Shown here: one piece after another, positions 28,331 to 57,427 of the stretch
Layout of the letters: each line of letters opens with the position of its first letter
Position numbering within the stretch: position 1 is the first letter of the stretch
DNA from: Antedon mediterranea
Lineage: Eukaryota > Echinodermata > Crinoidea > Comatulida > Antedonidae
Length of the DNA stretch: 64,000 nucleotides
Assembly: GCF_964355755.1 (NCBI RefSeq)
Contig: NC_092672.1
Location: 26,904,501-26,968,500 of the forward strand
Reading direction: 5' to 3'
Position numbers and translations under genes: made by a program
The notes under the pieces: generated by a model
Seen by the model: only the letters and a program-made list of their open reading frames with translations
Database searches by the model: none
What the model was told of the DNA's origin: nothing

Positions 28331-28373
28331 TTATGGGACGCTCAAAGTGCATATCGATATTTATTAATTTTTA

Positions 28374-29985
28374 TCTATATATAAATTTACGTAAGGGCAA
28401 AATTCGGTAAATCGCACCTTACTTCTAGAATGTTTACTCGATGGTATATACAGTTGGTTTGTACTTTCGGTACTGATTTTAACCACCTGATGTAAGCCTG
28501 TTTACTAATTAAATTAAGTTAGATAATTATTTATTGACGATTAAAACGAATTTAGGTTCAACGATTTGCCCCAAATAGGGGTGTTTTCCGATCATGGTAT
28601 ACACTGTCTAATGGAGACAGACAATAATACGAGGATGCTTCGCATTTTCCTATCTCCTCCTAAGATAATTGTTTTTAATGGCTGAAAACCGGTTGAACAG
28701 CTCGAGTACAGCATCATAATATTGAAGACAGGCCGATTTTCTTTAAAAAATACTATTTTGATAGATTTAATATACGTTTATACAAATGTATTGATTTGCG
28801 ATGAATGAAACATTCCAATCTCTGTTCCACAAGTGTCTATTCCCTCAGGCGTCGTAAAGGCAAGTACTGTATACTCATAACAAAAATTCGATCCATTTTT
28901 TTTTTCAACCAACCCAACCATTTCAATCTGTGCTGCAGAGGTTGGATATAAAATTTTTTTTAACGGATAATGAGCTAGCGTTTTCACTCGCCGTATATTA
29001 TGTACACATCTTTATTATTGCAGTCAAACCACCCACATCACCACCCTTCCCTCACTGGCATGAGTAGCGTTGTAAAACCAGTAGAGGATGGGCCTACGGT
29101 ACATCACATGCCCTAAACGCAGAACAACTTTGGTGGGTAGGGTAGGAACCAACTTAAGTATGAATTGGCTCTAAGAAACAATTGAAAACCATTAGGCCTA
29201 CTAATTAAGTTGAGTTAGATAATTTAATATTTATTGACGATTATATCGAATTTATGATTTTCCCCGAATAGAGGTGGTTTTTACAAATTGTTTTATATTA
29301 TATAAACAAATCCAAAGGCAAATTACTGAGAAAAATGACAATGCTGTGGGTATCAGTGGCTGGATCTCAATGGAGATACAAAAATAAAAATCGAAAAGCT
29401 AAATCAAAACGATAAAGTAAACAGCCAGAAAAGTTAGCAGAGCTTTCGGGCAACACTAGCCTTTCATCAGTGCATCATATTATATAAACATATACACGTC
29501 GCAGTGATGTATCGTTAGGCCTACATGTACTGTACTATTTCAATCGACTATGACGGTGATAGTTTCAACAAAGTATTAAATCGCAATGTTTTACTGTGTG
29601 TAGTGGTATATTATTTGTAAAACATGAAAAACAATTAATATTTTGTTACTAAATGGATAAAGAATATAGGCCTATTTAAAAATTGTTCCTCTTTGTACCC
29701 ATCCTCTTCCTCATCCCTCAACACTAATGTTACATACAAAACACAAATTAAGTTTGTTTAAATTTTACTTAAACAATTGGTCTCATTTTGTGACAAGTTT
29801 CTCTTTCGGAAGTAATTCCCAGGGTGCTAATTTTAGTTGAGTAAATAAATCACAGTGTCTATTTATTCGTTCCTGTAAACGACATGGATTATTGTCCTGC
29901 GGTACGTAGGCCCTACATTGAAATCGCCAGTTTTTTAACGCTGAAATTATTATGTAATTCGAGAACCATCTGTGGGTACGACCTA
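28374..29985. mobile_element. Non-autonomous Helitron, copy 1 (3' end lost)
   Basis: Starts TCTATATATAAATTTACG directly after an A and stays alignable with the copy at 55977-57427 over about 1.4 kb, up to GTGGGTACGACCT. The terminal hairpin and CTAG of copy 2 are missing here. A nested insertion lies at 29308-29476. It carries no Rep/helicase gene. Confidence 0.8.
29308..29476. mobile_element. Short insertion nested in Helitron copy 1
   Basis: Absent from Helitron copy 2 and flanked by a 14-base direct repeat, ATATTATATAAACA (29294-29307 and 29477-29490), so it looks like a retroposed SINE. It starts AATCCAAAGGCAAATTACTG; related sequence occurs at about 7325 and 23770, both in introns. It includes AAAGTAAACAGCCAGAAAAG and AGCTTTCGGGCAACACT. 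Confidence 0.65.
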
Positions 29986-33200: not shown

Positions 33201-36200
33201 CAGTTGATGATGGCACTGGAGTTATCAACTGTTGCTGCTGGAAACCAAATCCAGAACCACAACCATTCTTCCCAAAGGGTAAATTAATTAAATAAGTTTC
33301 AAAATTGTATTTTTGTTCTTAATCTTATTATGATTATGATTAAAACAGTTTTACCCTTTATGTTCAGGTGATGTTGAAAGTTTACCAATTGAGGAATTTC
33401 TAAACTTAACAATCTCTGACAGCTTAGTACAAATGATGTTACCATTAGATCTAGGAGATTCTATTCATGTCAGAGGTAGAGTTAAACGATACAGGGGTGA
33501 CATTCAAGTGTCTGCTGATTTCTTTGGTATGGTTATTTTTTCAATTTAACAAATCATGTTTACACCTCTCTTGTATTGCCTGTTTCTCCAGAGAAAAATA
33601 TATTGATAGAAATTTATTGTTTTCTACATGACAATATTCAGTTTTATACGTGTCTGCTGAGCTGCTCGATTTGTATGAGTCCTGAACATGCTATAACTCA
33701 TTGCCTGACCTCTGATTGGTTGCTCACTTTTTTGCTTAACAAAAAGTAGAAACTGCTAGTTTTCCTTTTTTTTGTGAAAAAATTTGAAAGCTTTTAAAGG
33801 CCATTTTTGCGGGAAAAAAATTTCTATTGATCATACATTTCAATAATTATCGATCTATAGTTTCCCCTATGTTTCATAATTTTGGGATTTTATTTGTGTT
33901 ACACGAGCTTGTTGAAAATAAGCACTTTCTTATCAGTGGGGGGGATAGTTCAAATTACACAGTAAAATCTCTATTCTTTTGTACACAAATTTTGTAAATA
34001 GAGAGGCATTTTAAAAAGCTATGAAAAATAAACAGTGTGGTAAAAAATGTTATCAGATGACTAAATATAGGTAATATAACTTGAATATTACATTTCTGGT
34101 ATTTTTATTCAACTTCATATTTTTATTTTCATGATATAGCAAAAATTATCCACTGTATATCCACCATCTTTTTTCACCTTCTAGGGAGTCACCAGACATG
34201 TTATTACATTAGAAACTACCTAACTACTGAAAAAAAGTCTTTCTGGTTTTTATGGAAGAATTTTGCCAACCTTTGTATTTGACCATATTAAGGGAAATTC
34301 ATGTTTTTTCGTCTTGATTTCTGTTACAAATATTTGATTTATGTACAATTAACCAAATATTATATTTAAAATTCATGCCTGTACCTGAGCTTTAAATCGA
34401 CATGCATGAATTGCCTAGTTAAGACAGGCTACTAAATAACAACAGGAGGACAAAACTTTATTGTTGTCCAACAATTAATTTGAATTAATACAGAAAAGGT
34501 AGATGATCCTCGATGTGAAAGAGAAATTGCAAGAATGTTGGAACTTCCAAAGCTCTACCGTGATGTTTATGACAAACAATTCAATTGGAGGGAAGCGGAA
34601 AAAATGAAATTACAGGTACTGTCGCCTAATATTATAAGGAATATAATTAGAAGGATTTAGTTATACATTTGTAAATAAACAAGGCTTGACATTTTTTGAC
34701 GGTAGGCTTTAATTTACATTTTATTCATTATTTAATCCATTTACCAATGACTTCTTATTTAGGCTTCAGTACCAGACAGTCTTATTGATGCTGTGGTCGA
34801 TTTTCTTCAGAATAGCTCCACCAATAGTTTCTATATTGAGGAGTTAGGAACAGTGGGGCAGTTAGTGGATATTGCGACGAGTTTATGCAAGGTAACTTTA
34901 TAATCAATGTATTTTTCTAGATCATCAAAATTGTCTTTAAAGCTTCTCTTTGAAGTGGTTCTTTGCTGGCAAGTCTCCACCAATTCATAATTCTGCGCAA
35001 TTTAATTGGCATAGTTTCACCTTTCAAGAATGATGTGTTGTAGTTTATATTATAAATTGATATACTAATGTAAACAGATATTAAAGCTGATTGAATGCAA
35101 CTTTGCAACTTCCAACCAAACATGATTTCTATCTTTAAGAACCCCACAGGTAATCCTATTATGGACGCTTCTACTTTATCCTCCAACCAAAGATGTACAA
35201 CTAGATCTACTACTCGTAATCAATCTGTCATCACAACCAATCCTAATGATTGTTCTTCTAAGACTTCCCAATCAGTTCCCCACATTTTTTCAAATCAAAA
35301 GCCATCTGGTGAAAAAGACCAGAGTTCTGTCACATCATCCACTCATGCCATTCATAAACTGTTAAAGGAAGCAGTGCATCACCTAGAGCACAGAGGTCTT
35401 GTTTACAAGGCAGAATCTGAGAAAGATCTTTTCTATGTAAGTATTTTCTTAAATACCGTACTGACGCTGGTATAAGCCCACCCTCCTTGAACATGAAATC
35501 ACGTCAAGTTTGGGGAGTGGGCTTATACCCGAGGATCCAAAAATGCAGATCGTCAAAAACAGCACATGTACTGTGTATTTTATCATGGACATCCCTCCTT
35601 TGAAACCACCACATGAGCGCCCTCACGATGTGTTGCAACGTGTATGTTGCCTATACACGAGGTGTAGAGTGTCGGAAAATTAAACTTTTAGTTTGTGTCA
35701 TTTATCGTAGAATCTAATATTTTAAACGTCAATTGAACAAGAATTTATACAATGTTCGTTAGATAGAAATGTACCAAAGAAATTTAATAAGCTTGTTTTA
35801 TGGCAGCCGATACCAAATAGGGGTTCTCCGTTTTGGCGACTTGTGATTCGAGCGTAGTGTGTGCAGCGATCTTCGCCAGCGATGGAGTGTAAACAAAACA
35901 GGACTGCTAGGCCTAATATGGCCTAGCTTATAATTAGCCTAGCTTGGTTATGATAAAAGGTAGGTGGATGCGGTGTATGGAAGTCCCAGATGGATCACAA
36001 AATTAATACTCGCCCTTACTAAATACAAAATATTGTTTTACTGCACCTACTGTAAATCTTCGAATTATGTGAAAGTCGGGAGTGGGCTTATACCCGAGTA
36101 TGGGTTTATACCTGCGTCAGTGTGGTAAAACAATGAAATATTGAAATATGTCAGTCAGTGTGCTTTGATTATATTTCCTGGTGATTTGCGCTTTCGTGGT

Positions 36201-37290
36201 ATGAAAAGTAACGTTTGGCATGTCTTCTCTACTTATAACAAAAATTTGATTACACTTTTATTTAAATGCAATGTCTTTCTAAAGTTGAATTTGACTGATT
36301 TTGTATTTCAGGTTGTACATGACCGCAAGTCCGTAGACGCAAAAGTTATAAAACTGTTGAAAGATTTGTGTTCAAAAACAAAGAGTAAGTTATAAAGAGT
36401 TATCTTATAACTCATAATTTACGGTTCTCATGTACTTGGTTAACTGAAGGCTTTGAAACTGCACAAATGAAATCATACAAGGTACACTTCTGTGTGCCTA
36501 ATTACGAAAAATATCCTTGTATTATTGTGTGTGGGTATTCTGCAGACAGTGCATACCACATTCACAAAACGCTCATATTTTTGACAACTGGTTCAACGAA
36601 AATTTGTCAAGAAATAGTAATATCTAACGCAACTAAATTAGTAAATATTCTGTACCATAAAGCTTTAAAAAAAAGTAGGTTTCAGCTGAATGCATTGAGG
36701 GCTAATTATTAGTGGATATTATGCAGGTGATTGTTATTGCTATAATTTACAAGTTAACAATTATAAGTATTAAAATGATTTTTGGATCAAGGAATGTGAT
36801 TTTTAGCAAACTTGGCAACTCTTCTTCAACTTTTAATCAATCTTCCTACTTTAAATATCTTTAACTACTGTAGTTAGACATGAGACTGACCAGGTGTCTG
36901 GTCTGAATTTTCCATTTTTTTTTCTTCTGATAATTTATAATTTTTGTTATTTGTGCAATTTTGCAACTCTGACTATAACCCCAGATATTGAATATGCTTG
37001 TTTGTAACTGAGAGTTTTTAAAGAAAGTTGACGTAAGTTTACAGCATGATATTGGCGTTACTGGTGGAAGTAAAATTTCAGTTCTCTTTTATAGCATGGT
37101 GGTTCTTTAATTCAATTGTATTTTAGATTTGAGAGGATGTCACTATCTTCAATTGTTAAAGAACCTTCAACAAAACAAAAGGTTTAGTAACGTCACAGAA
37201 AGCGCCCTCTTAGATGTTCTACAAAAACTGGAGAAGAACAGTGAAATAATTAGCACAACAAATGAACATTACATTCCATTCAGAATGTAA
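30232..37290 (+). CDS. STN1: STN1, CST telomere-capping complex subunit
   Basis: OB-fold protein that with CTC1 and TEN1 binds telomeric single-stranded DNA and helps polymerase alpha fill in the C strand. Nine coding exons agree in phase: 30232-30307, 32992-33087, 33204-33278, 33368-33526, 34494-34615, 34763-34891, 35140-35436, 36312-36384, 37127-37290; 396 residues (human 368). N-terminal FAKLYIKDIL matches the human FAKLYIRDIL. OB-fold about 31-138: VDIFGIVVKV, FFIYGVDDGTGVINCCCWK, GDSIHVRGRVKRYRG. After it come VDDPRCEREIARMLELPKLYRDVYD, a Ser/Thr/Asn-rich linker in exon 7 (about 225-270) that accounts for the extra length, and two winged-helix regions (AIHKLLKEAVHHLEHRGLV; LRGCHYLQLLK to NEHYIPF). 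The start is the only Met before FAKLY. AATAAA lies at 37319. Intron 1 (2.7 kb) holds a Gypsy relic and intron 7 a MITE. Confidence 0.95.
30340..30480. repeat. AGGCCT/GGCC-rich cluster in STN1 intron 1
   Basis: Starts about 30 bases after the exon 1 donor; rich in CCTAGGCCTAGGCTAGCTAGC-like overlapping palindromes. Confidence 0.5.
31000..32640 (+). pseudogene. Decayed Ty3/Gypsy retrotransposon in STN1 intron 1
   Basis: Short frame fragments appear in gag-to-integrase order on the plus strand, interrupted by many stops and frameshifts. At 31162 the frame reads CINCQQRGH, a gag zinc knuckle whose final Cys is lost. Near 32070-32190, SVLYRWW followed by RLVLPEEFKNMALKEL resembles the stretch before the integrase H2C2 zinc finger. 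Near 32390-32500, a PQMDG followed after a shift by RFNHTLVN matches the conserved 'HPQTDG..ERFNRTL' end of the integrase core. Protease and reverse transcriptase are not recognisable and no LTRs were found. It is incapable of activity. Confidence 0.6.
35454..36127. mobile_element. MITE in STN1 intron 7
   Basis: Left end TACCGTACTGACGCTGGTAT; the reverse complement of the right end is TACCACACTGACGCAGGTAT, so about 27 bp of inverted terminal repeat with few mismatches. The phrase GTGGGCTTATACCCGAG occurs near both ends. No coding content. The target duplication is unclear (TA or AAA). Confidence 0.65.
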
Positions 37291-37324: not shown

Positions 37325-37982
37325 AAGGAAACAAATAATATCTTAATATTGCTGAAATGGAAATTTATTATTAAACTTTATAATTGAATAACCATTTCTT
37401 TAATTATTGCATTTAAAAGCTATAAACTAATTTAAAATTGTTTCTTAGCATATTATAATATGTATAAACTATGTACGATAATTAAAGATACATTTTGAAT
37501 TAAATTCTAAAATGTAATGTTCTTACAAATTGCCATTATAAAAATTGCTATATTGTTATTTTTTATCCTAAGTAAAGGTATTTTCTTAAATTTTAATGAT
37601 TTAGGCAATATTTTTTTTAACTTACCCTTACTTTACAATGTCAGTTAAGAAGAAATATTTGTTTTAATTATACTACAGTATATTCACAAGAAATAATGAT
37701 AATTTACAAAAAAAATGATTATTTGGAAAATTTATCTAAATTACAAATTATTGTCAAAATCATGCAAATTTTGAATATATTATAGCTCCTCGGGATCGAT
37801 GGTGACCTCCAATTTTTTAAATCTTCTATTGCAAGCAGATAAGGTGTAGATATGAATTCATGTAAAATTGTTATCTCTCCGATGTTTTTTACATCATCAT
37901 ATGGCTACTCAAATAAAAAATATAGGAATTTTGTCTCTTTTGTTATTGTTGATCACATTTAAATTATTCATTTATTCATTGC
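37325..37982. other. STN1 3' flank with an interspersed-repeat copy
   Basis: AT-rich. Bases about 37790-37910, read in reverse complement (GATGATGTAA, TACATGAATTCA, CTACACC, AAAAAATTGGAGGT), align loosely with 50395-50510 (GATGATGTCA, TACATGAATTCA, CTACAAC, AAAAATATTGGGGT). Diverged copies of one repeat therefore lie in opposite orientation on either side of the L23a array. Confidence 0.45.
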
Positions 37983-40900
37983 CAGAAGGAACAAGTTGGA
38001 TGACTACATCATCTTTAAGTTTCCTTTGACCACAGAGAGTGCTTTGAAGAAATTTGAAGATAACAACACACTTGTCTTTATTGTTTCCCTCAAAGCTAAC
38101 AAGTTCCAGATCAAGGCTGCTGTAAAGAAACTCTACGAAATTAAACTGTCAAAGATCAATACACTCATCAGACCTGATGGACAGAAAAAAGCTCATGTGA
38201 GTTTGGAATCCGATTACAATGCTTTAGACATTGCAAACAAAATGCAATTTAATTTATTTTTTGTCTTAAGCGAGACGCGCTGTATTAAATGTAATGAGCA
38301 GTGACGAAAGAGACAACAGAAGAATCATACCAAGGTAACATTTTAAAGATCAAAGATGCTCTCGCTGACATGTAATAAAAAATATCCCAGGAGGACTATT
38401 GCCAGAAGGAACAAGTTTAAGATGACTACAGCATCATCAAGTTTCCTTTAACCACAGAGAGTGCTTTGAAGAAAATTGAAGAAAACAACACACTTGTCTT
38501 TATTGTTGTCCTCAAAGCTAACAAGTTCCAGATCAAGGCTGTTGTAAAGAAACTCTACAACATAAAGTGTCAAAGGGTCAACACACTCAACAGACCTGAT
38601 AGGTACAAAAAAGCTTATGTAAGGTTGGAATCCGATTACAATGCTTTAGACATTGCAAACAAAATGCAATTTAATTTATTTTTTGTCTTAAGCGAGACGC
38701 GCTGTATTAAATGTGATGAGCAGTGACGAAAGAGACAACAGAAGAATCATACCAAGGTAACATTTAGAAGATCAAAGATACTCTCGCTGACATGTAATAA
38801 AAAATATCCCAGGAGGACTATTGCCAGAAGGAACAAGTTTAAGATGACTACAGCATCATCAAGTTTCCTTTAACCACAGAGAGTGCTTGGAAGAAAATTG
38901 AAGAAAACAACACATTTGTCTTTATTGTTGTCCTCAAAGCTAACAAGTTCCAGATCAAGGCTGTTGTAAAGAAACTCTACAACATAAAGTGTCAAAGGGT
39001 CAACACACTCAACAGACCTGATAGATTGGAAAAATCTTATGTAGGTTGAATCCGGTTACGATGCTTTAGACGTTTCAAACAAGATTGGTATAATATAAAC
39101 CAGAATCGACAAGACCATGTTGCAAATTTTTGTCTTCTTGTTTGTAATCCATGTTTCTACAGTCCCACTGAAGGGAAAGGGCAAGTCACCTTGTGATAGG
39201 CTGCAATCTGACAGTCTATTTCATTTCAGAAAAAGAAGATTCATACCCGGTAATACCATGGTGACATTTAGAAGACCAAAGACACTGTCGCTGAAACGTA
39301 ATCCATAATATCCCAGAAGGACCATTGCCAGAAGGAACAAGTTGGATGACTACATCATCTTTAAGTTTCCTTTGACCACAGAGAGTGCTTTGAAGAAATT
39401 TGAAGATAACAACACACTTGTCTTTATTGTTGCCCTCAAAGCTAACAAGTTCCAGATCAAGGCTGCTGTAAAGAAACTCTACGAAATTAAACTGTCAAAG
39501 GTCAATACACTCATCAGACCTGATGGACAGAAAAAAGCTCATGTGAGTTTGGAATCCGATTACAATGCTTTAGACATTGCAAACAAAATGTAATTTAATT
39601 TATTTTTTGTCTTAAGCGAGATGCGCTGTATTAAATGTAATGAGCAGTGACAAAAGAGACAACAGAAGAATCATACCAAGGTAACATTTTAAAGATCAAA
39701 GATGCTCTCGCTGACATGTAATAAAAAATATCCCAGGAGGACTATTGCCAGAAGGAACAAGTTTAAGATGACTACAGCATCATCAAGTTTCCTTTGACCA
39801 CAGGGAGTGCTTTGAAGAAAATTGAAGAAAACAACACACTTGTCTTTATTGTTGTCCTCAAAGCTAACAAGTTCCAGATCAAGGCTGTTGTAAAGAAACT
39901 CTACAACATAAAGGGTCAAAGGGTCAACACACTCAACAGACCTGATAGATACAAAAAAGCTTATGTAAGGTTGGAATCTGGTTACGATGATTTAGACGTT
40001 TCAAACAAGATTGGTATAATATAAACCAGAATCGACAAGACCATGTTGCAAATTTGTGTCTACTTGTTTGTATAATCCATGTTTCTACAGTCCCACTGAA
40101 GGGAAAGGGCCTTGTCACCTTGTGATAGGCTGCAATTTGACAGTCTATTCCATTTCAGCTAAAGAAGATTCATACCATGGTGACATTTAGAAGACCAAAG
40201 ACGCTCTCGCTGAAACGTAATCCATAATATCCCAGAAGGACCATTGCCAGAAGGAACAAGTTGGATGACTACATCATCTTTAAGTTTCCTTTGACCACAG
40301 AGAGTGCTTTGAAGAAATTTGAAGATAACAACACACTTGTCTTTATTGTTGCCCTCAAAGCTAACAAGTTCCAGATCAAGGCTGCTGTAAAGAAACTCTA
40401 CGAAATTAAACTGTCAAAGGTCAATACACTCATCAGACCTGATGGACAGAAAAAAGCTCATGTGAGTTTGGAATCCGATTACAATGCTTTAGACATTGCA
40501 AACAAAATGAAATTTAATTTATATTTTGTCTTAAGCGAGACGCGCTGTATTAATTGTAATGAGCAGTGACGAAAGAGACAACAGAAGAATCATACCAAGG
40601 TAACATTTGGAAGATCAAAGATGCTCTCGCTGACATGTAATAAAAAATATCCCAGGAGGACTATTGCCAGAAGGAACAAGTTAAAGATGACTACAGCATC
40701 ATCAAGTTTCCTTTAACCACAGAGAGTGCTTGGAAGAAAATTGAAGAAAACAACACACTTTTCTTTATTGTTGTCCTCAAAGCTAACAAGTTCCAGATCA
40801 AGGCTGTTGTAAAGAAACTCTACAACATAAAGTGTCAAAGGGTCAACACACTCAACAGACCTGATAGATACAAAAAAGCTTATGTAGGTTGAATCCGGTT

Positions 40901-41493
40901 ACGATGCTTTAGACGTTTCAAACAAGATTGGTATAATATAAACCAGAATCGACAAGACCATGTTGCAAATTTTTGTCTTCTTGTTTGTAATCCATGTTTC
41001 TACAGTCCCACTGAAGGGAAAGGGCAAGTCACCTTGTGATAGGCTGCAATTTGACAGTCTATTCCATTTCAGCAAAAGAAGATTCATACCATGGTGACAT
41101 TTAGAAGACCAAAGACGCTCTCGCTGAAACGTAATCCATAATATCCCAGAAGGACCATTGCCAGAAGGAACAAGTTGGATGACTACATCATCTTTAAGTT
41201 TCCTTTGACCACAGAGAGTGCTTTGAAGATATTTGAAGATAACAACACACTTGTCTTTATTGTTGCCCTCAAAGCTAACAAGTTCCAGATCAAGGCTGCT
41301 GTAAAGAAACTCTACGAAATTAAACTGTCAAAGGTCAATACACTCATCAGACCTGATGGACAGAAAAAAGCTCATGTGAGTTTGGAATCCGATTACAATG
41401 CTTTAGACATTACAAACAAAATGCAATTTAATTTATTTTTTGTCTTAAGCGAGACGCGCTGTATTAAATGTAATGAGCAGTGACGAAAGAGAC

Positions 41494-41904
41494 AACAGAA
41501 GAATCATACCAAAGTAACATTTTAAAGATCAAAGATGCTCTCGCTGACATGTAATAAAAAATATCCCAGGAGGACTATTGCCAGAAGGAACAAGTTTAAG
41601 ATGACTACAGCATCATCAAGTTTCCTTTAACCACAGAGAGTGCTTTGAAGAAAATTGAAGAAAACAACACACTTGTCTTTATTGTTGTCCTCAAAGCTAA
41701 CAAGTTCCAGATCAAGGCTGCTGTAAAGAAACTCTACAACATAAAGTGTCAAAGGGTCAACACACTCAACAGACCTGATAGATACAAAAAAGCTTATGTA
41801 AGGTTGGAATCCGATTACAATGCTTTAGACATTGCAAACAAAATGCAATTTAAATTATTTTTTGTCTTAAGCGAGACGCGCTGTATTAAATGTGATGAGC
41901 AGTG
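41494..41904 (+). pseudogene. Representative class B L23a unit
   Basis: Here the Lys codon is intact ([15 protein letters not shown]), but AACAAGTTTAAGATGAC carries a two-base insertion relative to AACAAGTTGGATGAC-type units, shifting the frame just before the conserved FPLTTESA block. Downstream the frame reads [40 protein letters not shown]. Some B units have further lesions: TGCTTGGAAG instead of TGCTTTGAAG, a deletion giving TATGTAGGTTGA, or AATTGCAAACAAAATG at the end. About 16 copies. Confidence 0.85.
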
Positions 41905-44900
41905 ACGAAAGAGACTACAGAAAAATCATACCAAGGTAACATTTTGAAGATCAAAGATGCTCTCGCTGACATGTAATAAAAAATATCCCAGGAGGACTAT
42001 TGCCAGAAGGAACAAGTTTAAGATGACTACAGCATCATCAAGTTTCCTTTTACCACAGAAAGTACTTTGAAGAAAATTGAAGAAAACAACACACTTGTCT
42101 TTATTGTTGTCCTCAAAGCTAACAAGTTCCAGATCAAGGCTGTTGTAAAGAAACTCTACAACATAAAGGGTCAAAGGGTCAACACACTCAACAGACCTGA
42201 TCGATACAAAAAAACTTATGTAAGGTTGGAATCCGATTACAATGCTTTAGACATTAATTGCAAACAAAATGCAATTTAATTTATTTTTTGTCTTAAGCGA
42301 GACGCGCTGTATTAAATGTGATGAGCAGTGACGAAAGAGACTACAGAAGAATCATACCAAGGTAACATTTTGAAGATCAAAGATGCTCTCGCTGACATGT
42401 AATAAAAAATATCCCAGGAGGACTATTGCCAGAAGGAACAAGTTTAAGATGACTACAGCATCATCAAGTTTCCTTTAACCACAGAGAGTGCTTGGAAGAA
42501 AATTGAAGAAAACAACACACTTGTCTTTATTGTTGTCCTCAAAGCTAACAAGTTCCAGATCAAGGCTGTTGTAAAGAAACTCTACAACATAAAGGGTCAA
42601 AGGGTCAACACACTCAACAGACCTGATCAATACAAAAAAACTTATGTAAGGTTGGAATCCGATTACAATGCTTTAGACATTAATTGCAAACAAAATGCAA
42701 TTTAATTTATTTTTTGTCTTAAGCGAGACGCGCTGTATTAAATGTGATGAGCAGTGACGAAAGAGACTACAGAAGAATCATACCAAGGTAACATTTTGAA
42801 GATCAAAGATGCTCTCGCTGACATGTAATAAAAAATATCCCAGGAGGACTATTGCCAGAAGGAACAAGTTAAAGATGACTACAGCATCATCAAGTTTCCT
42901 TTAACCACAGAGAGTGCTTTGAAGAAAATTGAAGAAAACAACACACTTGTCTTTATTGTTGTCCTCAAAGCTAACAAGTTCCAGATCAAGGCTGCTGTAA
43001 AGAAACTCTACAACATAAAGTGTCAAAGGGTCAACACACTCAACAGACCTGATAGATACAAAAAAGCTTATGTAAGGTTGGAATCCGATTACAATGCTTT
43101 AGACATTGCAAACAAAATGCAATTTAAATTATTTTTTGTCTTAAGTGAGACGCGCTGTATTAAATGTGATGAGCAGTGACGAAAGAGACTACAGAAAAAT
43201 CATACCAAGGTAACATTTTAAAGATCAAAGATGCTCTCGCTGACATGTAATAAAAAATATCCCAGGAGGACTATTGCCAGAAGGAACAAGTTTAAGATGA
43301 CTACAGCATCATCAAGTTTCCTTTTACCACAGAGAGTGCTTTGAAGAAAATTGAAGAAAACAACACACTTGTCTTTATTGTTGTCCTCAAAGCTAACAAG
43401 TTCCAGATCAAGGCTGTTGTAAAGAAACTCTACAACATAAAGGGTCAAAGGGTCAACACACTCAACAGACCTGATCGATACAAAAAAACTTATGTAAGGT
43501 TGGAATCCGATTACAATGCTTTAGACATTAATTGCAAACAAAATGCAATTTAATTTATTTTTTGTCTTAAGCGAGACGCGCTGTATTAAATGTGATGAGC
43601 AGTGACGAAAGAGACTACAGAAGAATCATACCAAGGTAACATTTTGAAGATCAAAGATGCTCTCGCTGACATGTAATAAAAAATATCCCAGGAGGACTAT
43701 TGCCAGAAGGAACAAGTTTAAGATGACTACAGCATCATCAAGTTTCCTTTAACCACAGAGAGTGCTTGGAAGAAAATTGAAGAAAACAACACACTTGTCT
43801 TTATTGTTGTCCTCAAAGCTAACAAGTTCCAGATCAAGGCTGTTGTAAAGAAACTCTACAACATAAAGGGTCAAAGGGTCAACACACTCAACAGACCTGA
43901 TCAATACAAAAAAACTTATGTAAGGTTGGAATCCGATTACAATGCTTTAGACATTAATTGCAAACAAAATGCAATTTAATTTATTTTTTGTCTTAAGCGA
44001 GACGCGCTGTATTAAATGTGATGAGCAGTGACGAAAGAGACTACAGAAGAATCATACCAAGGTAACATTTTGAAGATCAAAGATGCTCTCGCTGACATGT
44101 AATAAAAAATATCCCAGGAGGACTATTGCCAGAAGGAACAAGTTAAAGATGACTACAGCATCATCAAGTTTCCTTTAACCACAGAGAGTGCTTGGAAGAA
44201 AATTGAAGAAAACAACACACTTGTCTTTATTGTTGTCCTCAAAGCTAACAAGTTCCAGATCAAGGCTGTTGTAAAGAAACTCTACAACATAAAGTGTCAA
44301 AGGGTCAACACACTCAACAGACCTGATAGATACAAAAAAGCTTATGTAGGTTGAATCCGGTTACGGTGCTTTAGACGTTTCAAACAAGATTGGTATAATA
44401 TAAACCAGAATCGACAAGACCATGTTGCAAATTTTTGTCTTCTTGTTTGTAATCCATGTTTCTACAGTCCCACTGAAGGGAAAGGGCAAGTCACCTTGTG
44501 ATAGGCTGCAATTTGACAGTCTATTCCATTTCAGCAAAAGAAGATTCATACCATGGTGACATTTAGAAGACCAAAGACGCTCTCGCTGAAACGTAATCCA
44601 TAATATCCCAGAAGGACCATTGCCAGAAGGAACAAGTTGGATGACTACATCATCTTTAAGTTTCCTTTGACCACAGAGAGTGCTTTGAAGATATTTGAAG
44701 ATAACAACACACTTGTCTTTATTGTTGCCCTCAAAGCTAACAAGTTCCAGATCAAGGCTGCTGTAAAGAAACTCTACGAAATTAAACTGTCAAAGGTCAA
44801 TACACTCATCAGACCTGATGGACAGAAAAAAGCTCATGTGAGTTTGGAATCCGATTACAATGCTTTAGACATTACAAACAAAATGCAATTTAATTTATTT

Positions 44901-45288
44901 TTTGTCTTAAGCGAGACGCGCTGTATTAAATGTAATGAGCAGTGACGAAAGAGACAACAGAAGAATCATACCAAGGTAACATTTTAAAGATCAAAGATGC
45001 TCTCGCTGACATGTAATAAAAAATATCCCAGGAGGACTATTGCCAGAAGGAACAAGTTTAAGATGACTACAGCATCATCAAGTTTCCTTTGACCACAGGG
45101 AGTGCTTTGAAGAAAATTGAAGAAAACAACACACTTGTCTTTATTGTTGTCCTCAAAGCTAACAAGTTCCAGATCAAGGCTGTTGTAAAGAAACTCTACA
45201 ACATAAAGGGTCAAAGGGTCAATACCCTCAACAGACCTGATAGATACAAAAAAGCTTATGTAAGGTTGGAATCTGGTTACGATGATTT

Positions 45289-45452
45289 AGACGTTTCAAA
45301 CAAGATTGGTATAATATAAACCAGAATCGACAAGACCATGTTGCAAATTTGTGTCTACTTGTTTGTAATCCATGTTTCTATAGTCCCACTGAAGGGAAAG
45401 GGCCTTGTCACCTTGTGATAGGCTGCAATTTGACAGTCTATTCCATTTCAGC
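45289..45452 (+). repeat. Representative long spacer of the L23a array
   Basis: After a normal L23a ending (SNKIGII and stop), about 160 bases follow with ATCCATGTTTCTATAGTCCC and TTCCATTTCAG before the next unit. The TTTCAG end and the phase of the next exon suggest the founding copy was a genomic segment (intron 3' end, last exon, 3' flank), not a reverse-transcribed mRNA. Short-spacer units replace this with GTCTTAAGCGAGACGCGCTG. Confidence 0.7.
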
Positions 45453-45862
45453 TAAAGAAGATTCATACCATGGTGACATTTAGAAGACCAAAGACGCTCT
45501 CGCTGAAACGTAATCCATAATATCCCAGAAGGACCATTGCCAGAAGGAACAAGTTGGATGACTACATCATCTTTAAGTTTCCTTTGACCACAGAGAGTGC
45601 TTTGAAGAAATTTGAAGATAACAACACACTTGTCTTTATTGTTGCCCTCAAAGCTAACAAGTTCCAGATCAAGGCTGCTGTAAAGAAACTCTACGAAATT
45701 AAACTGTCAAAGGTCAATACACTCATCAGACCTGATGGACAGAAAAAAGCTCATGTGAGTTTGGAATCCGATTACAATGCTTTAGACATTACAAACAAAA
45801 TGCAATTTAATTTATTTTTTGTCTTAAGCGAGACGCGCTGTATTAAATGTAATGAGCAGTGA
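45451..45862 (+). pseudogene. Representative class A L23a unit
   Basis: After CATTTCAG, an apparent 3' splice site, the frame reads LKKIHTMVTFRRPKTL, SLKRNP, then TAA where L23a has the Lys of QPKYPRK. The frame is open again for about 115 codons: [19 protein letters not shown] to ANK, but the normal ending IGII is replaced by [16 protein letters not shown]. Class A units also begin near 37983 (partial), 39270, 40170, 41090, 44550, 46390 and 47720; units near 48630 and 49130 share its 5' half. The same in-frame TAA recurs wherever the 5' part is present. Confidence 0.85.
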
Positions 45863-48800
45863 CGAAAGAGACAACAGAAGAATCATACCAAGGTAACATT
45901 TTAAAGATCAAAGATGCTCTCGCTGACATGTAATAAAAAATATCCCAGGAGGACTATTGCCAGAAGGAACAAGTTTAAGATGACTACAGCATCATCAAGT
46001 TTCCTTTGACCACAGGGAGTGCTTTGAAGAAAATTGAAGAAAACAACACACTTGTCTTTATTGTTGTCCTCAAAGCTAACAAGTTCCAGATCAAGGCTGT
46101 TGTAAAGAAACTCTACAACATAAAGGGTCAAACGGTCAATACACTCAACAGACCTGATAGATACAAAAAAGCTTATGTAAGGTTGGAATCTGGTTACGAT
46201 GATTTAGACGTTTCAAACAGGATTGGTATAATATAAACCAGAATCGACAAGACCATGTTGCAAATTTGTGTCTACTTGTTTGTAATCCATGTTTCTACAG
46301 TCCCACTGAAGGGAAAGGGCCTTGTCACCTTGTGATAGGCTGAAATTTGACAGTCTATTCCATTTCAGCTAAAGAAGATTCATACCATGGTGACATTTAG
46401 AAGACCAAAGACGCTCTCGCTGAAACGTAATCCATAATATCCCAGAAGGACCATTGCCAGAAGGAACAAGTTGGATGACTACATCATCTTTAAGTTTCCT
46501 TTGACCACAGAGAGTGCTTTGAAGAAATTTGAAGATAACAACACACTTGTCTTTATTGTTGCCCTCAAAGCTAACAAGTTCCAGATCAAGGCTGCTGTAA
46601 AGAAACTCTACGAAATTAAACTGTCAAAGGTCAATACACTCATCAGACCTGATGGACAGAAAAAAGCTCATGTGAGTTTGGAATCCGATTACAATGCTTT
46701 AGACATTGCAAACAAAATGAAATTTAATTTATATTTTGTCTTAAGCGAGACGCGCTGTATTAATTGTAATGAGCAGTGACGAAAGAGACAACAGAAGAAT
46801 CATACCAAGGTAACATTTGGAAGATCAAAGATGCTCTCGCTGACATGTAATAAAAAATATCCCAGGAGGACTATTGCCAGAAGGAACAAGTTAAAGATGA
46901 CTACAGCATCATCAAGTTTCCTTTAACCACAGAGAGTGCTTTGAAGAAAATTGAAGAAAACAACACACTTGTCTTTATTGTTGTCCTCAAAGCTAACAAG
47001 TTCCAGATCAAGGCTGTTGTAAAGAAACTCTACAACATAAAGTGTCAAAGGGTCAACACACTCAACAGACCTGATAGATACAAAAAAGCTTATGTAAGGT
47101 TGGAATCCGATTACAATGCTTTAGACATTGCAAACAAAATGCAATTTAATTTATTTTTTGTCTTAAGCGAGACACGCTGTATTAAATGTGATGAGCAGTG
47201 ACGAAAGAGACTACAGAAGAATAATACCAAGGTAACATTTTGAAGATCAAAGATGCTCTCGCTGACATGTAATAAAAAATATCCCAGGAGGACTATTGCC
47301 AGAAGGAACAAGTTTAAGATGACTACAGCATCATCAAGTTTCCTTTAACCACAGAGAGTGCTTGGAAGAAAATTGAAGAAAACAACACACTTGTCTTTAT
47401 TGTTGTCCTCAAAGCTAACAAGTTCCAGATCAAGGCTGTTGTAAAGAAACTCTACAACATAAAGTGTCAAAGGGTCAACACACTCAACAGACCTGATAGA
47501 TACAAAAAAGCTTATGTAGGTTGAATCCGGTTACGATGATTTAGACGTTTCAAACAAGATTGGTATAATATAAACCAGAATCGACAAGACCATGTTGCAA
47601 ATTTGTGTCTACTTGTTTGTAATCCATGTTTCTACAGTCCCACTGAAGGGAAAGGGCAAGTCACCTTTTGATAGGCTGCAATTTGACAGTCTATTCCATT
47701 TCAGCTAAAGAAGATTCATACCATGGTGACATTTAGAAGACCAAAGACGCTCTCGCTGAAACGTAATCCATAATATCCCAGAAGGACCATTGCCAGAAGG
47801 AACAAGTTGGATGACTACATCATCTTTAAGTTTCCTTTGACCACAGAGAGTGCTTTGAAGAAATTTGAAGATAACAACACACTTGTCTTTATTGTTGCCC
47901 TCAAAGCTAACAAGTTCCAGATCAAGGCTGCTGTAAAGAGACTCTACGAAATTAAACTGTCAAAGGTCAATACACTCATCAGACCTGATGGACAGAAAAA
48001 AGCTCATGTGAGTTTGGAATCCGATTACAATGCTTTAGACATTACAAACAAAATGCAATTTAATTTATTTTTTGTCTTAAGCGAGACGCGCTGTATTAAA
48101 TGTAATGAGCAGTGACGAAAGAGACAACAGAAGAATCATACCAAGGTAACATTTTAAAGATCAAAGATGCTCTCGCTGACATGTAATAAAAAATATCCCA
48201 GGAGGACTATTGCCAGAAGGAACAAGTTTAAGATGACTACAGCATCATCAAGTTTCCTTTAACCACAGAGAGTGCTTGGAAGAAAATTGAAGAAAACAAC
48301 ACACTTGTCTTTATTGTTGTCCTCAAAGCTAACAAGTTCCAGATCAAGGCTGTTGTAAAGAAACTCTACAACATAAAGTGGCAAAGGGTCAACACACTCA
48401 ACAGACCTGATAGATAGAAAAAAGCTTATGTAGGTTGAATCAAGTTATGATGCTTTAGACGTTTCAAACAAGATTGGTATAATATAAACCAGAATCGACA
48501 AGACCATGTTGCAAATTTTTGTCTACTTGTTTATAATCCATGTTTCTACAGTCCCACTGAAGGGAAGGAGAATGCTTCCTTGTGATTGGCTGCAATTTTA
48601 CAGTCCATTCTATTTCAGCAAATGAAGATTCATACCAAGGTGACATTTAGAAGACCAAAGATGCTCTCGCTGAAACATAATCCATAATATCCCAGAAGGA
48701 CCATTGCCAGAAGGAACAAGTTGGATGACTACATCATCTTTAAGTTTCCTTCGACCACAGAGAGTGCTTTGAAGAAATTTGAAGATAACAACAAACTTGT

Positions 48801-50100
48801 CTTTATTGTTGCCCTCAAAGCTAACAAGTTCCAGATCAAGGCTGTTGTAAAGAAACACTACAACATAAAGTGTCAAAGGGTCAACGCACTCAACAGACCT
48901 GATAGATACAAAAAAGCTTATGTAAGGTTGGAATCTGGTTACGATGATTTAGAAGTTTCAAACAAGATTGGTATAATATAAACCAGAATCGACAAGACCA
49001 TGTTGCAAATTTTTGTCTACTTGTTTGTAATCCTTGCTTCTACAGTCCCACTGAAGGGAAGGAGAATGCTTCCTTGTGATAGGCTGCAATTTTACAGTCC
49101 ATTCTATTTCAGCAAAAGAAGATTCATACCAAGGTGACATTTAGAAGACCAAAGATGCTCTCGCTGAAACATAATCCATAATATCCCAGAAGGACCATTG
49201 CCAGAAGGAACAAGTTGGATGACTACATCATCTTTAAGTTTCCTTCGACCACAGAGAGTGCTTTGAAGAAATTTGAAGATAACAACAAACTTGTCTTTAT
49301 TGTTGCCCTCAAAGCTAACAAGTTCCAGATCAAGGCTGTTGTAAATAAACTTTGCAACATAAAGTGTCAAAGGTCAATACACTCATCAGACCTGATGGAC
49401 AGAAAAAAGCTCATTTGAGTTTGGAATCCGATTACAATGCTTCAGACATTGCAAACAAAATGCAATTTAATTTAATTTTTGTCTTAAACAGACGCGCTGT
49501 ATTAAATGTGATGAGCAATGACGAAAGAGACAAACGAGGAATCATACCAAGGTGACATTTCGAAGATCAAAGATACTCTCGCTGACATGTAATCAAAAAT
49601 ATCCCAGGAAGACCATTGCCAGAAGGAACAAGTTTAAGATGACTACAGCATCATCAAGTTTCCTTTAACCTCAGAGAGTGCTTTGAAGAAAATTTAAGAA
49701 AACAACACACTTGTCTTTGTTGTTGCCCTCAAAACTAACAATATCCAGATCAAGGCTGTTGTAAAGAAACTCTACAACATAAAGTGTCAAAGGGTCAACA
49801 CACTCAACAGACCTGATATATACAAAAAAGCTTATGTAAGGTTGGAATCTAGTTACGATGATTTAAACGTTTCAAACAAGATTGGTATAATATAAGCCAG
49901 AATCGACAAGACCATGTTGAAAATGTTTGTCTATTTGTTTATGTTTCTACGGTCCCACTGAAGGGAAAGAGCAAGCTTCCTTGTGATAGGCTGCAATTTG
50001 ACAGTCCATTCCATTTCAACAAAAGAAGATTCATACCATGGTGACATTTAGAAGACCAAAGACGCTCTCGTTGAAACGTAATCCAAAATATCCCAGAAGG

Positions 50101-50220
50101 ACAATTGCCAGTTTCCTTTAACCACAGAAAGTGCTTTGAAGAAATGAAATTAAAGTGTCAAAGGTCGACATACTCATCAGACCTGATCGACAGAAAAAGT
50201 CTTATATATTGTGTAGGTTA
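50101..50220 (+). pseudogene. Degenerate terminal fragment of the L23a array
   Basis: GGACAATTGCCAG joins directly to TTTCCTTTAACCACAGAAAG, then jumps to AAATTAAAGTGTCAAAGGTC and a decayed RPDRQKK. Internal deletions mark the right edge of the array. Confidence 0.75.
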
Positions 50221-50901
50221 AATTACGTGATATACGTATTCAAATTTTTAGGCATGTTGGTGTCATCAAAATAAAAAGGGTGCCAAATCATGAGAAAGAT
50301 AATTAATAAAGCTAATTGAAATTTGAAAGGAAAATCAGGCACAGATAAACAAGATGGCTTCTCTTAAATATGATAATCTATATTATGAAAGAGAAAAAGT
50401 GGACACTTTGATGATGTCACAACATTTTTTTACATCAAATATGTACATGAATTCACACCTACAACACAATGGCTTCCAGAATACATTAAAAATATTGGGG
50501 TTATCGTGCATTCTGAAGAATTATTTTCATTAAAAAAATGCCTTAATTTTTACCATATTCAGCACTTTTGTGTAATTAATGTGCGCATTTTTTCATTTTG
50601 TAGGAGCTTGTATTGCTTTATTTAAATCGGAATGGACTCAAATTTAGTGAATGTATTAAGGAAGGTGAGTAGAATGCGATTTGTACAAAAAACATTTTTT
50701 TAAGTATTGTGTGTAATTTTTTGAAAATTGATCAAAACGTCATTTTGAGTTTTTTAAATTTTTAACGTGCACTTTAACACTCATGACCCTGTGTACTATT
50801 TTATTTGATAATATTGTTACCCCTGACCTGAAGTTTATGTATAGATGTAATGACGGCAACGATGACGATGATGATGGTGATAATGATAATCATAATAATA
50901 T
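50221..50901. other. Interspersed repeat copy and GAT-rich microsatellite
   Basis: Bases 50353-50530 read like part of a dispersed repeat (AAGTGGACACTTTGATGATG and TACATGAATTCA) whose inverted, diverged counterpart lies near 37.8 kb. Bases 50860-50900 are GATGATGGTGATAATGATAA-type simple sequence leading into the SINE. Confidence 0.45.
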
Positions 50902-51390
50902 GATTAGTACGGCCATACTGCGTTGAAACACCGGTTCTCGTCAGATCACCGAAGTTAAGCAACGTTGGGCCCGGTTGCGTTCTGGATGGGAGACCGTCCA
51001 GAAATCGCGGCGGGTGCTGTATATACTGGAGAGTGATGGTGTAATGGTAATATCGAACTAGCATGTGATAGGCATGGGTTCGAGTTTATCTGTACCATAC
51101 TAATTGCATCCTTAGGCAAGATGCTTTACTCTCATTGCCTCATCCTTCCGATGGGATGTAAAGCCGTTGGTCCTGTGTACTTAACAGTGCACGTTAAAGA
51201 AATTGGTACACTATTCGAAAAGAGTAGGGGATCGTCTCCCGGTGTGCTGATATGGTAGGCGCTGCACTGCTGGCTGCCGTGGGTCCGTGGAGGGCCTAAT
51301 CCGAATTTCCTCAGTTTCCAGTTAAGCATGAGGACAAATACATATAAAATAAAAAATAAAATAAATAAAATAATAATCATAATAATAATA
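50902..51390 (+). mobile_element. SINE with a 5S rRNA head and an internal tRNA-like promoter
   Basis: Bases 50903-51020 align with 5S rRNA along its length. They are followed at 51037-51047 by TGGTGTAATGG (A-box-like) and at 51077-51087 by GGTTCGAGTTT (B-box-like) at tRNA spacing. A central domain (GGCAAGATGCTTTACTCTCA, GGGATGTAAAGCCGTTGGTC, AGTGCACGTTAAAGAA) follows, and the element ends in an AATAAAATAATAA tail. ATAATCATAATAATA lies at both ends (50886-50900 and 51373-51387), a likely target duplication although in simple sequence. No protein is encoded. Confidence 0.8.
50903..51020 (+). pseudogene. 5S rRNA-derived sequence (SINE head)
   Basis: TACGGCCATACTGCGTTGAA, ACCGGTTCTCGTCAGATCAC, CGAAGTTAAGCAACGTTGGG and TGGATGGGAGACCGTC match the conserved metazoan 5S core, including its internal control region. 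The 5' end (GATTAG), the 3' stem and several central positions have drifted, and the sequence runs straight into the SINE body, so it is not a functional 5S gene. Confidence 0.85.
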
Positions 51391-51529
51391 ATCAATGATA
51401 ATAATTTTATACGTCATTGAAAAATTGGAGGTACACAACTTCACATAAATGTGGATATCAAAATATTTTGTCCACACCTTCTAGAGAAACGACGCACAAA
51501 AAAAGAAGAAAGAAGAATAATACAGACAA

Positions 51530-51650
51530 AAAATATGATTCTATACAATAACAAGGAGTTATCCGCATATTGCAGATAACTATAAAAGATGCTGATTTCA
51601 TACAATTACAAGGAGTTATCTGCCAAGGTGTGGATAACTAAAAGGTTTTT
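51530..51650. repeat. Short two-copy direct repeat
   Basis: ACAAGGAGTTATCCGCATAT and ACAAGGAGTTATCTGCCAAG, each followed within about 20 bases by GGATAACTA- or AGATAACTA-type sequence; the period is about 70 bases. Confidence 0.5.
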
Positions 51651-51679
51651 AAAGCTTGTTTAAAACTACAGGATCTTAG

Positions 51680-53450
51680 TGTATTTGGTAAACTGTTACA
51701 TAAACATTGGTGCCACTTTGCTTCTCAAAACTTTGTTCTCCACAGGTTTGTTCATGTTCTCACTGTGATTGTATGGAATCATCATCTTTTTATTTTTATT
51801 AGTTCTAAAAGTTTGATGTCTACTCTTAGCTTCGGTTTAATTGATGATGTTTACCTATATTGTGATAGTGTTGAAGATAAAACATCTAAGTTTTATGAAA
51901 GCCTAAGTATTGCGATTGATTACTACTTTCCAAAAAAATCAGTAAAAATGCATGTACGTGACCGACCATGGATGACACCTGCAATCAAGAATCTGATAAA
52001 AAAAAGCGCCAGCAAGCTTTTGCAACTAGAGGAACATCAAATGTATGGAGATTCTACAAAAACATTGTGCAAAAACAAATCAAATCGTGCAAAAAACATT
52101 GTTACAAAGAAAATATTAGTAATCTAAAATCATCTGACTCTAAAAAATGGCACCAAGGAATCAAACTACTTACAAATAAGCTTAAACCACAACCTACTAT
52201 TTGTGCCCCAGGTGTTCCATTAGATAATTTGGTTGGCACGAGCAATGCTATCAACTCCTTCTTTGGTGACATAGCGCGCAGCAGACCCTATCGCCTTGAA
52301 CAAATTACCATAATTTCTACATGCACAACTGCCGCCTTGTGTATCAGAGTGGGAGATGTATCTAGAACTTAAGAAAGTGAAGGTTGGAAAATCTCCCGGA
52401 CCCGACAATATTCCAAACAAAATCTTGAAGGAATTTGCATGTGAAATTAGCCAACCAATAACGCATATTTTCAACACATCCTTAAGCAAAGGCATTGTCC
52501 CCAGCTGGTGTACTTCTCGTTTCAAAAAGTACTTCCTGTCATTGATCCCATTGTAATTGACGACCGACAACTTGAATGTGTCACTGAAGTGAGTATCTTA
52601 GGAGTCTGGGTCCAAAGCAACCTTAAATGGAATAAAAATGTTAGTGAAATCATTTTAAAAAGCAGCAGAAAACTACATTATGTTATGTCGTCTAAAAAAT
52701 TCAGTGTCCCCGTTGAAGATCTAGTAGAGGTATATACTGGCTACATTAGATCTACCCTTGAATATGCGGCATAAGTGTGGCATTCAGGTATAACTAATGA
52801 ACAGAGCAATGCTATTGAGAAAATACATATTGCGTGCTTGCCGAATCATTCTAGGCCATAAATATATAGATTATCCTCACGCACTGAATAACCTTAACCT
52901 CCTAACCTTATCTGAACGTAGAACAAAGCTGTGCCTTAAACTTGCCAAAACTTGTGCAAAAGACGATCGCTTTTCATGGTGGTTCAGTTGAAATAACACA
53001 GCTCACAATATGGTTCTTCGCAATCCTAAAAAATATGTTGAGCCATTAGCCAAAGTCAGCCGTTATCATAATTAATAGTGCAATCCCATATCTTACCAGA
53101 ATTTTAAATAAAAATAATATTAATAATATATAAAGATTTAACAACAGCGTGCAACATCTGTTGGCCCCATTGTGTATTTTTGTAAATTTTTATACCATTT
53201 TACTGCTACTAATGAATTGTTAATTAGTTTTTTATATATTTACAAGTGCATATCCATTCCGTAATTTTTATAAGTAGTCATTTAATTCTTCAACCATATA
53301 TTTTTGATATCTTATTTGTAAATTTGATTTTGTTTTATATGTGTATAATGATCTGTGCAATTTTTATTGTTATGTAAATCCCAAGAAATTCAGTTTCTTT
53401 TCTGTGATTTGTGGATATTATTAAAATAAATAAATAAATAAATAAATTGG
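51680..53450 (+). pseudogene. CR1/Rex-like LINE relic with deleted catalytic core
   Basis: The plus strand holds fragments of a LINE ORF2 in order. First is the linker between endonuclease and reverse transcriptase (VRDRPWMTPAIKNLIKKSAS, then KHCYKENISNLKSSDSKKWH in another frame). Next is the first reverse-transcriptase block, KKVKVGKSPGPDNIPNKIL, and FNTSLSKGIVPSWC. The sequence then jumps to thumb-region blocks SILGVWVQSNLKWNKNV and YTGYIRSTLEYAA. The segment with the catalytic F/YADD motif is missing. It ends in (AAAT)n at about 53425-53450, a typical LINE tail. The 5' endonuclease is truncated and frameshifts and stops are present. Non-functional. Confidence 0.8.
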
Positions 53451-55786: not shown

Positions 55787-55976
55787 AATCAAATGGAAAT
55801 AGAGAAATAATGTTGAAAAGATGGTAATAAATGGTGAGAGTAAAAAAAATAAGTGATTCTAATTTGGCAACAAGTTTACCTGATTGAATGCTAACTTGTG
55901 TAGTAGAATTTTTACATATTAATATGTTGTAATAAGAATTGTAGTTAAAATGTTGTAATCATTTTAAGTTGTGTTA

Positions 55977-57427
55977 TCTATATATAAATTTACGTAAGGG
56001 CAAAATTCGGTAAATCACGCGTTATTTCTAGAATGTTTACTCGATGGTATATAAAGTTGGTTAGAATCTCGGTACTGATTTTAACCACCTGATGTAACCC
56101 TGTTTACTAATTAAATTGAGTTAGATAATTAGTTATTGACAATTAAAACGAATTTAGGTTCAACGATTTGCCCCAAATAGGGGTGTTTTTCGATCGTGGT
56201 ATACACTGTCTAATGGATGTCCGTCTTGAAAAATACCCACAGACAATAATACGAGGATGCTTCGCATTTTCCTATCTCCTCCTACGATAATTGTTTTTAA
56301 TGGCTGAAAACCGGTTGAACAGCTCGAGTACAGCATCATAATGTTGAAGACAGGCCGCTTTTCTTTAAAAAATACTATTTTGATAGATTTAATATACGTT
56401 TATACAAATGTATTGATTTGCGATGAATGGAACATTCCAATCTCTGTTCCACAAGTGTCTATTCCCTCAGGCGTCGTAAAGGCAAGTACTGTATACTCAT
56501 AACAGAAATTTGATCCATTTTTTTTTTAATCTGTGCTGCAGAGGTTGGATATAATTTTTTTTAAACGGATAATGAGCTAGCGTTTTCAGTCGCAGTATAT
56601 TATGTAAACATCTTTATTATTGCATTTAAACCACCCACATCATCACCCCTCCCTCACTGGCATGAGTAGCGTTGTAAAGCCAGTACAGGATAGGCCTACG
56701 GTGCATCACATCCCCTAAACGCAGAACAACTTTGGTGGGTAGGGTAAGAACCAACTTAAGTATGAATTGGCTCTAAGAAACAATTGAAAACCATTAGGCC
56801 TACTAATTAAGTTGAGTTAGATAATTTAATATTTATTGACGATTAAATCGAATTTATGATTTTCCTCGAATAGAGGTGGTTTTCACAAATTGTTTTACAT
56901 TATATAAACATACACGTCGTAGTGATGTATCGTTACATGTACTGTAGCCTACTATTTCAATCGACTAGGACGGTGATAGTTTCAACAAAGTATTACATAG
57001 CAATGTTTTACTGTGTTTAGTGGTATATTATTTGTAAAACATGAAAACAATTAATATTTCGTTACTAAATGGATAAAGAATATATTTAATATATTTAAAA
57101 ATTGTTCCTCTTTGCACCCATCCTCTTCCCCATCCCTCACCCCTAATGTTACATACAAAACACAAATTAAGTTTGTTTAAATTTGACTTAAACAATTGGT
57201 CTCATTTTGTGACAAGTTTCTCTTTCGGAAGTAATTCTCAGGGTGCTAATTTTAGTTGAGTACATAAATCATTGTCTATTTATTCGTTCCTGTAAACGAC
57301 ATGTATTATTGTAGGCCTACGTACATTTGAAATCGCCAGTTTTTTAACGCTGCAATTATTATGTATTCGAAAACCATCTGTGGGCACGACCTAGATGGTA
57401 CGCGAGCGAAGCGAGCGTACCATCTAG
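55977..57427. mobile_element. Non-autonomous Helitron, copy 2, both ends intact
   Basis: It starts TCTATATATAAATTTACG and ends CATCTAG (CTRR-type), between a flanking A (55976) and T (57428), as expected of Helitron insertion into AT. Just before the 3' end lies a perfect hairpin with arm AGATGGTACGC, loop GAGCGAAGCGA and its complement. The 1451-bp body has no Rep/helicase frame and matches the copy at 28374-29985. Confidence 0.88.

Follow-up and report, generated by a model that had tools for sequence, protein, structure and literature searches.

A tandem array of truncated RPL23A retrocopy units, with Helentron-type transposon DNA in its spacers and flanks, in the crinoid Antedon mediterranea

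The window analysed here, a whole stretch of 64,000 nt from Antedon mediterranea (GCF_964355755.1, NC_092672.1:26,904,501-26,968,500, forward strand), contains an array of head-to-tail fragments of the ribosomal protein gene RPL23A. Upstream lie plus-strand C-terminal exons of STN1, of the telomere CST complex (35095-37287; Pfam matches at 37,129-37,287, above the cut-off with 43.1 bits, and at 35,095-35,475, just below it with 26.7 against 27.2), and the array begins about 0.7 kb downstream of them. The units fall into two types, A and B, separated by two types of spacer, S1 and S2, and transposon DNA of the Helentron type (HINE) is found in S1 and on both flanks. The features are:

37738..37962, plus strand: left flank, internal HINE-type piece corresponding to element positions 634-856 (80% identity over 225 bp)
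37978..50216, plus strand: the array in full, with 27 units, of which 17 are A and 10 B, and a degenerate 28th, delimited by anchors, unit types and tandem-repeat rows
40949..41076, plus strand: example S2 spacer, made of the native start of the 3' UTR, a middle of about 83 bp and the native start of exon 3
41077..41449, plus strand: example B body (u08), RPL23A exons 3 and 4 joined, with the stop CCATAA, running into the start of S1
41450..41500, minus strand: HINE-derived piece in an example S1 spacer (matches of 45-51 bp, 88-91% identical to the copies L003 and L007)
41501..41838, plus strand: example A body (u09), exons 3 and 4, with a +2 insertion that follows the anchor's AAGTT
48706..50216, plus strand: right edge, the most diverged units u25-u27 and the degenerate u28
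50204..51641, minus strand: right flank, HINE-type element, degraded and split by a 5S-derived SINE-like repeat, with its 5' end at 51,641

The 17-base anchor, GCCAGAAGGAACAAGTT, occurs exactly 27 times on the plus strand, from 37,981 to 49,618, at spacings of 418-504 bp, and Tandem Repeats Finder gave five rows with periods of 422-494 bp in the same stretch. After the 27 anchor-bearing units comes an internally deleted 28th, u28, at about 50,009-50,204. The figure of about 27 head-to-tail plus-strand copies in a preliminary description of this DNA is thus borne out, as is its assignment of the copies to RPL23A/uL23. A search of the 354-Mb assembly with the Pfam profile Ribosomal_L23 (PF00276), with all 30 of 30 candidates scored, produced 29 matches above the cut-off, of which 27 lie in the array, one lies in the parent gene (C3:1,888,117) and one, weak, at C2:2,684,192. 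The best PDB match for the reading frame of one B unit is uL23/L23a (E 3.4e-39), so that no better match to another protein was seen for that frame. The L23eN profile (PF03939, 51 positions) matched only the parent and 10 places in the array, where the matches begin at profile positions 18-26. Since homology to the parent mRNA also starts in exon 3, the N-terminal third is missing from the array, as had been proposed.

From left to right the units follow the order BAABABABAAAAAAABABABAABABBA (17 A and 10 B). The step that leads to an A unit runs through S1 and the step that leads to a B unit through S2, and there are 17 S1 and 10 S2 spacers. Of these 27, pattern typed 24; the remaining three were assigned from their lengths (S1 at 420 and 422 bp, S2 at 497 bp), and spacer searches agree, with 17 matches for S1 and 10 for S2. 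The array is a mixture of B-S1-A-S2 dimers of about 917 bp and A-S1 monomers of about 424 bp. Mean identity is 96.7% among A units (120 pairs, 16 units) and 98.8% among B units (28 pairs, 8 units), and falls to 86.3% between A and B (128 pairs); to the parent it is 86.0% for A and 89.9% for B, units u25-u27 being excluded from all of these sets. Could so regular a structure be an artefact of assembly? An identity between A and B of this size, the irregular order of the two types, a longest exact repeat of 855 bp and the complete absence of N from the window all speak against it, and we consider an artefact highly improbable.

The S1 spacer carries the HINE-derived sequence of about 50 bp in antisense orientation. 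A search of the genome met the S2 middle, of about 83 bp, in the array and at no other place. An origin of the S2 middle as a remnant of parent exon 2 is not supported, its best local alignment score being equalled or passed by 44 of 500 shuffles; a comparison with the parent locus over its first 3,500 bases, judged by score only, gave no convincing match to it.

The parent is an intron-bearing RPL23A gene at 1.888 Mb on C3, the contig that also holds the array, 25 Mb away. Its frame is open across exons 2-5 (exon 1 was not located), and its introns measure 236 bp between exons 2 and 3, 1,232 bp between exons 3 and 4 and 384 bp between exons 4 and 5. The last of these (L001:5081-5464) is of the GC-AG type. 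What is repeated in the array consists of parts of exons 3, 4 and 5, each unit beginning in exon 3. The exon 3/4 junction is crossed without any intron bases in all 27 units, in place of the 1,232-bp intron of the parent. Ten of the 27 also cross the exon 4/5 junction without an intron and reach the 3' UTR, the other 17 stopping before exon 5. When 8 kb of the parent locus was compared with the array by BLAST, matches were confined to exons 3, 4 and 5 and to the first part of the 3' UTR, with joints placed to within a few bases. Parent introns are thus removed at exact splice junctions, as in a retrocopy, and their absence shows that the founder was made from spliced mRNA, a processed pseudogene that was multiplied later as DNA. 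The preliminary description needs correction in two respects here. It had spoken of one truncated exon, and the repeated piece comprises parts of three with the introns gone; it had also set the array against processed pseudogenes as the usual fate of ribosomal protein genes, and the three-exon, intron-free span suggests that the array is itself a processed pseudogene, subsequently amplified.

Neither a poly-A tail nor a target-site duplication was seen by eye in the spacers or at the array edges; both edges are rearranged, and the original insertion ends are not recognisable, so that this absence carries little weight. The lack of a visible poly-A tail, together with the location of parent and array on one contig, would suit a duplication of part of the parent gene at the DNA level, a truncated exon being then amplified. 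Such an origin is contradicted by the exact junctions, with intron 3 missing from 27 of 27 units and intron 4 from 10 of 10 that reach exon 5, unless the parent gained both introns later, and we give it almost no credence.

The two unit types are disabled in different ways. The stop CCATAA is present in all nine B units that hold the relevant column, u01 starting after it, and the degenerate u28 is without this stop; a frame-shifting +2 insertion is present in 17 of 17 A units. Against the parent, changes found only in A number 6 synonymous and 20 not, and those found only in B number 4 and 9, where random change would be expected to give a synonymous share of 25%. The counts rest on consensus sequences of 16 A and 8 B units, without u25, u26, u27 and u28. 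Every base change was judged by itself against the parent codon, and columns with a gap in the parent were skipped; three columns in which A and B have each departed from the parent in their own way (1 synonymous, 2 non-synonymous) were assigned to neither group. A short shift in A (alignment columns 250-258) adds non-independent changes to the A-only set, 2 synonymous and 4 non-synonymous, and without it the A-only counts become 4 and 16. Shares so close to the random value suggest that A and B have changed without visible constraint since they separated. Disabled frames and unconstrained change are what is expected of a processed pseudogene, and nothing in the letters of the array suggests that it still makes protein.

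Changes common to A and B have a different composition, 11 synonymous and 6 not, and include no stops. As the A and B consensus sequences have no disabling lesion in common, the frame of their ancestor was still open in this part when the two types split. The shared, mostly synonymous changes may come from the working parent gene or from a copy still under constraint, and an open frame at the split may be compatible with two separate insertions or with a short functional phase. Could the units then be a functional retrogene array, or code for short uL23-like peptides? Many units have open frames, of 61-115 codons, and this, like the 11 synonymous changes among the 17 that are shared, might be taken in this sense. 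Yet the stop in B, the frameshift in A, the missing N-terminal third and type-specific changes with about the random synonymous share all count against it, and the shared changes may date from the working parent gene; present function of this kind would be extremely improbable. Most likely the array does nothing for the cell.

How the units multiplied can be read in part from their similarities. Exact repeats extend over 855 bp at a lag of 1,274 (three A units), 608 bp at a lag of 3,462 and 523 bp at a lag of 917 (one dimer); they were found by an ungapped lag scan, a megablast search for long repeats having given one row. Repeats of these lengths point to recent exchanges spanning several units. 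Units u25-u27, at the right edge, share on average 84-95% identity with the two main types, and u28 is deleted internally, so this edge probably holds the oldest units. The left edge has no such decay: it ends abruptly in the middle of a unit, and u01 is 95-99% like other B-type units. A+B dimers, runs of A, long exact repeats and decayed units at the right edge fit repeated unequal exchange, although unequal exchange, rolling-circle amplification and gene conversion would look alike in one assembled haplotype. The near-identity of the central units and the decay at the right edge, both remarked upon earlier, are accordingly confirmed by the exact repeats and by the divergence of the last units. 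The term satellite-like, used in the same place, suits the structure, for head-to-tail copies, a homogenised interior and higher-order repeats are those of a macrosatellite-type array with concerted evolution. It does not suit the distribution: in genome searches with the best candidates scored, array units and the S2 spacer were found at this locus only, so that the array lacks the abundance at many loci of classical satellite DNA.

The dispersed repeat from which the S1 piece derives is represented here by a single copy of about 1.6 kb, in L012. It starts with TTAGTTATCCGC-TTAGTA-GCGGATAACT and ends with GCGGATAACTAACTCGTCAAAGTGACGAGTT-TCATGTCTAGTT, and has a 5' sub-terminal repeat (subTIR) with its complement nearby; at the 3' end, a palindrome comes after the sub-terminal repeat. 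Terminal features of this kind are described for HINEs, which are non-autonomous Helentrons, in the part of PMC7492417 drawn on here; the combination was read from the one copy in L012. At four of five longer loci (L009, L010, L011 and L013, of L009-L013) further HINE-type copies lie in the same orientation within a few kb, but these five were hand-picked from 40 scored of 1,147 candidates, partly for having second matches nearby, and give no frequency of tandem arrangement.

HINE DNA in the S1 spacers and on both flanks suggests that it joined the retrocopy before or during amplification. Did it also drive the amplification? A Helentron might have captured the retrocopy and built the array by rolling-circle replication, the array being the cargo of a broken HINE. 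In support, HINE pieces are present within S1 and on either side of the array, the right-hand side having a 5' module in minus orientation, and satellite-like arrays joined to Helitron parts, including one-sided ones, are described together with rolling-circle amplification in the portion of PMC12628747 cited here. Matches on the right flank extend over 51,641-51,411, 50,765-50,724 (weak) and 50,570-50,204 (63%). However, a HINE 3' module next to the array was sought in vain, both by pattern and in BLAST searches that used five copies of the element and E values up to 0.01, one weak 41-bp match lying 35 kb off at 2,379-2,419. A HINE-borne array would have 5' and 3' modules in one orientation; here the 5' module is on the right only, and the left piece is internal and inverted. 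Similarity to other copies is 80-90% for the left piece and for S1, against 63% for the inner right piece, a gap that speaks for different HINE insertions, and the searches made found the array at a single locus. Capture and rolling-circle replication by a Helentron is on balance unlikely. Very unlikely, in our judgement, is a further version, in which Helentron-driven amplification would have turned the gene fragment into a proto-satellite whose putative transcripts could feed small RNAs directed against the parent mRNA, to which stretches of up to 45 nt in the array still correspond exactly.

The right-hand element is interrupted at 50905-51300 by a sequence with an Rfam 5S rRNA match (66.6 bits), part of the dispersed 5S-derived SINE-like repeat, which has at least 39 other places among 40 scored of 2,379 first-look candidates. 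By eye, a tail like that of this repeat is present within intron 3 of the parent RPL23A gene. Beyond the 5' end of the element, at 51,642-52,774, are broken frames that resemble the remnant of a LINE reverse transcriptase; they produced nothing above the Pfam cut-off.

The history that we regard, with good confidence, as probable runs from retrocopy through a duplication of B and A at a HINE junction and decay as pseudogenes to unequal exchange or equivalent slippage at the DNA level. The spliced origin, the order of the units, the HINE content of S1, the unconstrained pattern of the type-specific changes and, within the searches made, the single locus are observed; in what sequence the steps took place, and that unequal exchange was at work, is what we infer. 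Spliced RPL23A mRNA would have been reverse-transcribed and inserted in a HINE-rich place 25 Mb from its parent. This retrocopy, or the part of it that survived, would have been without exons 1-2 and the greater part of the 3' UTR. An early duplication would have divided it into the pieces B and A, the junction between them, now S1, taking up about 50 bp of HINE. Both pieces would then have decayed as pseudogenes, each with its own disabling changes, and the B-S1-A-S2 dimer and the A-S1 monomer would have been multiplied by repeated unequal exchange or slippage. This multiplication would have made the inner units alike, while decayed ones persisted at the right edge.

This is reminiscent of several known systems, each with its own differences. 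Like the Dux/DUX4 (D4Z4) macrosatellites of mammals, which are described as retrogene arrays in the section of PMC8877164 used here, the RPL23A array appears to have arisen from an intron-free retrocopy that became a local array. Unlike the Dux/DUX4 units, which in that section code for a transcription factor, the RPL23A units are of about 420-500 bp, truncated, disabled and of ribosomal-protein origin, and an intact, selected unit frame of the Dux kind was not found. The human RPL23AP7 subtelomeric duplicons also involve RPL23A-pseudogene-like transcripts, but as far as the passages of PMC2323237 relied on here describe them, these are blocks of 7-38 kb spread by DNA duplication to many chromosome ends and not a tandem array of a fragment. 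Tandem repeats beside Helentron-type sequence are shared with the oyster Cg_HINE arrays, in the account given by the part of PMC7492417 consulted; the present array differs from HINE/Helentron arrays, as there portrayed, in that its repeat unit is mostly host mRNA, occupies one locus and is without both HINE modules. A single RNA-derived insertion followed by secondary multiplication at the DNA level is likewise reported for SEPTIN14P-CICP of great apes in PMC13015009, where the spread was in segmental duplications, unlike the short-unit tandem array of the RPL23A copy. Among titles and abstract openings in the literature searched, we met no tandem array of a retrocopy of RPL23A or of any other ribosomal protein gene. 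Retrocopy-derived tandem arrays being already known from Dux/DUX4, the RPL23A array adds an apparently dead example, one that combines the themes of the retrogene array, RPL23A-pseudogene spread and the Helitron-joined array. It amounts to unusual but understandable junk DNA that has formed a local repeat, and it probably makes no difference to the organism. Its value lies in what one stretch of DNA seems to record: a spliced mRNA, a retrocopy, a decayed dimer and a homogenised array, with a piece of transposon fixed in the repeat unit. With the parent gene supplying the founder sequence, one can put in order how a tandem repeat was born and turned over, which is hard for satellites without a known origin.

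Two other repeats were observed in the window. At 12830-13286 a 22-bp sequence is repeated in about 21 copies with 94% matches, within an open frame of 177 codons. Two direct copies of a longer segment, about 90-92% alike, flank the array on the left (28371-29985) and on the right (55974-57393).
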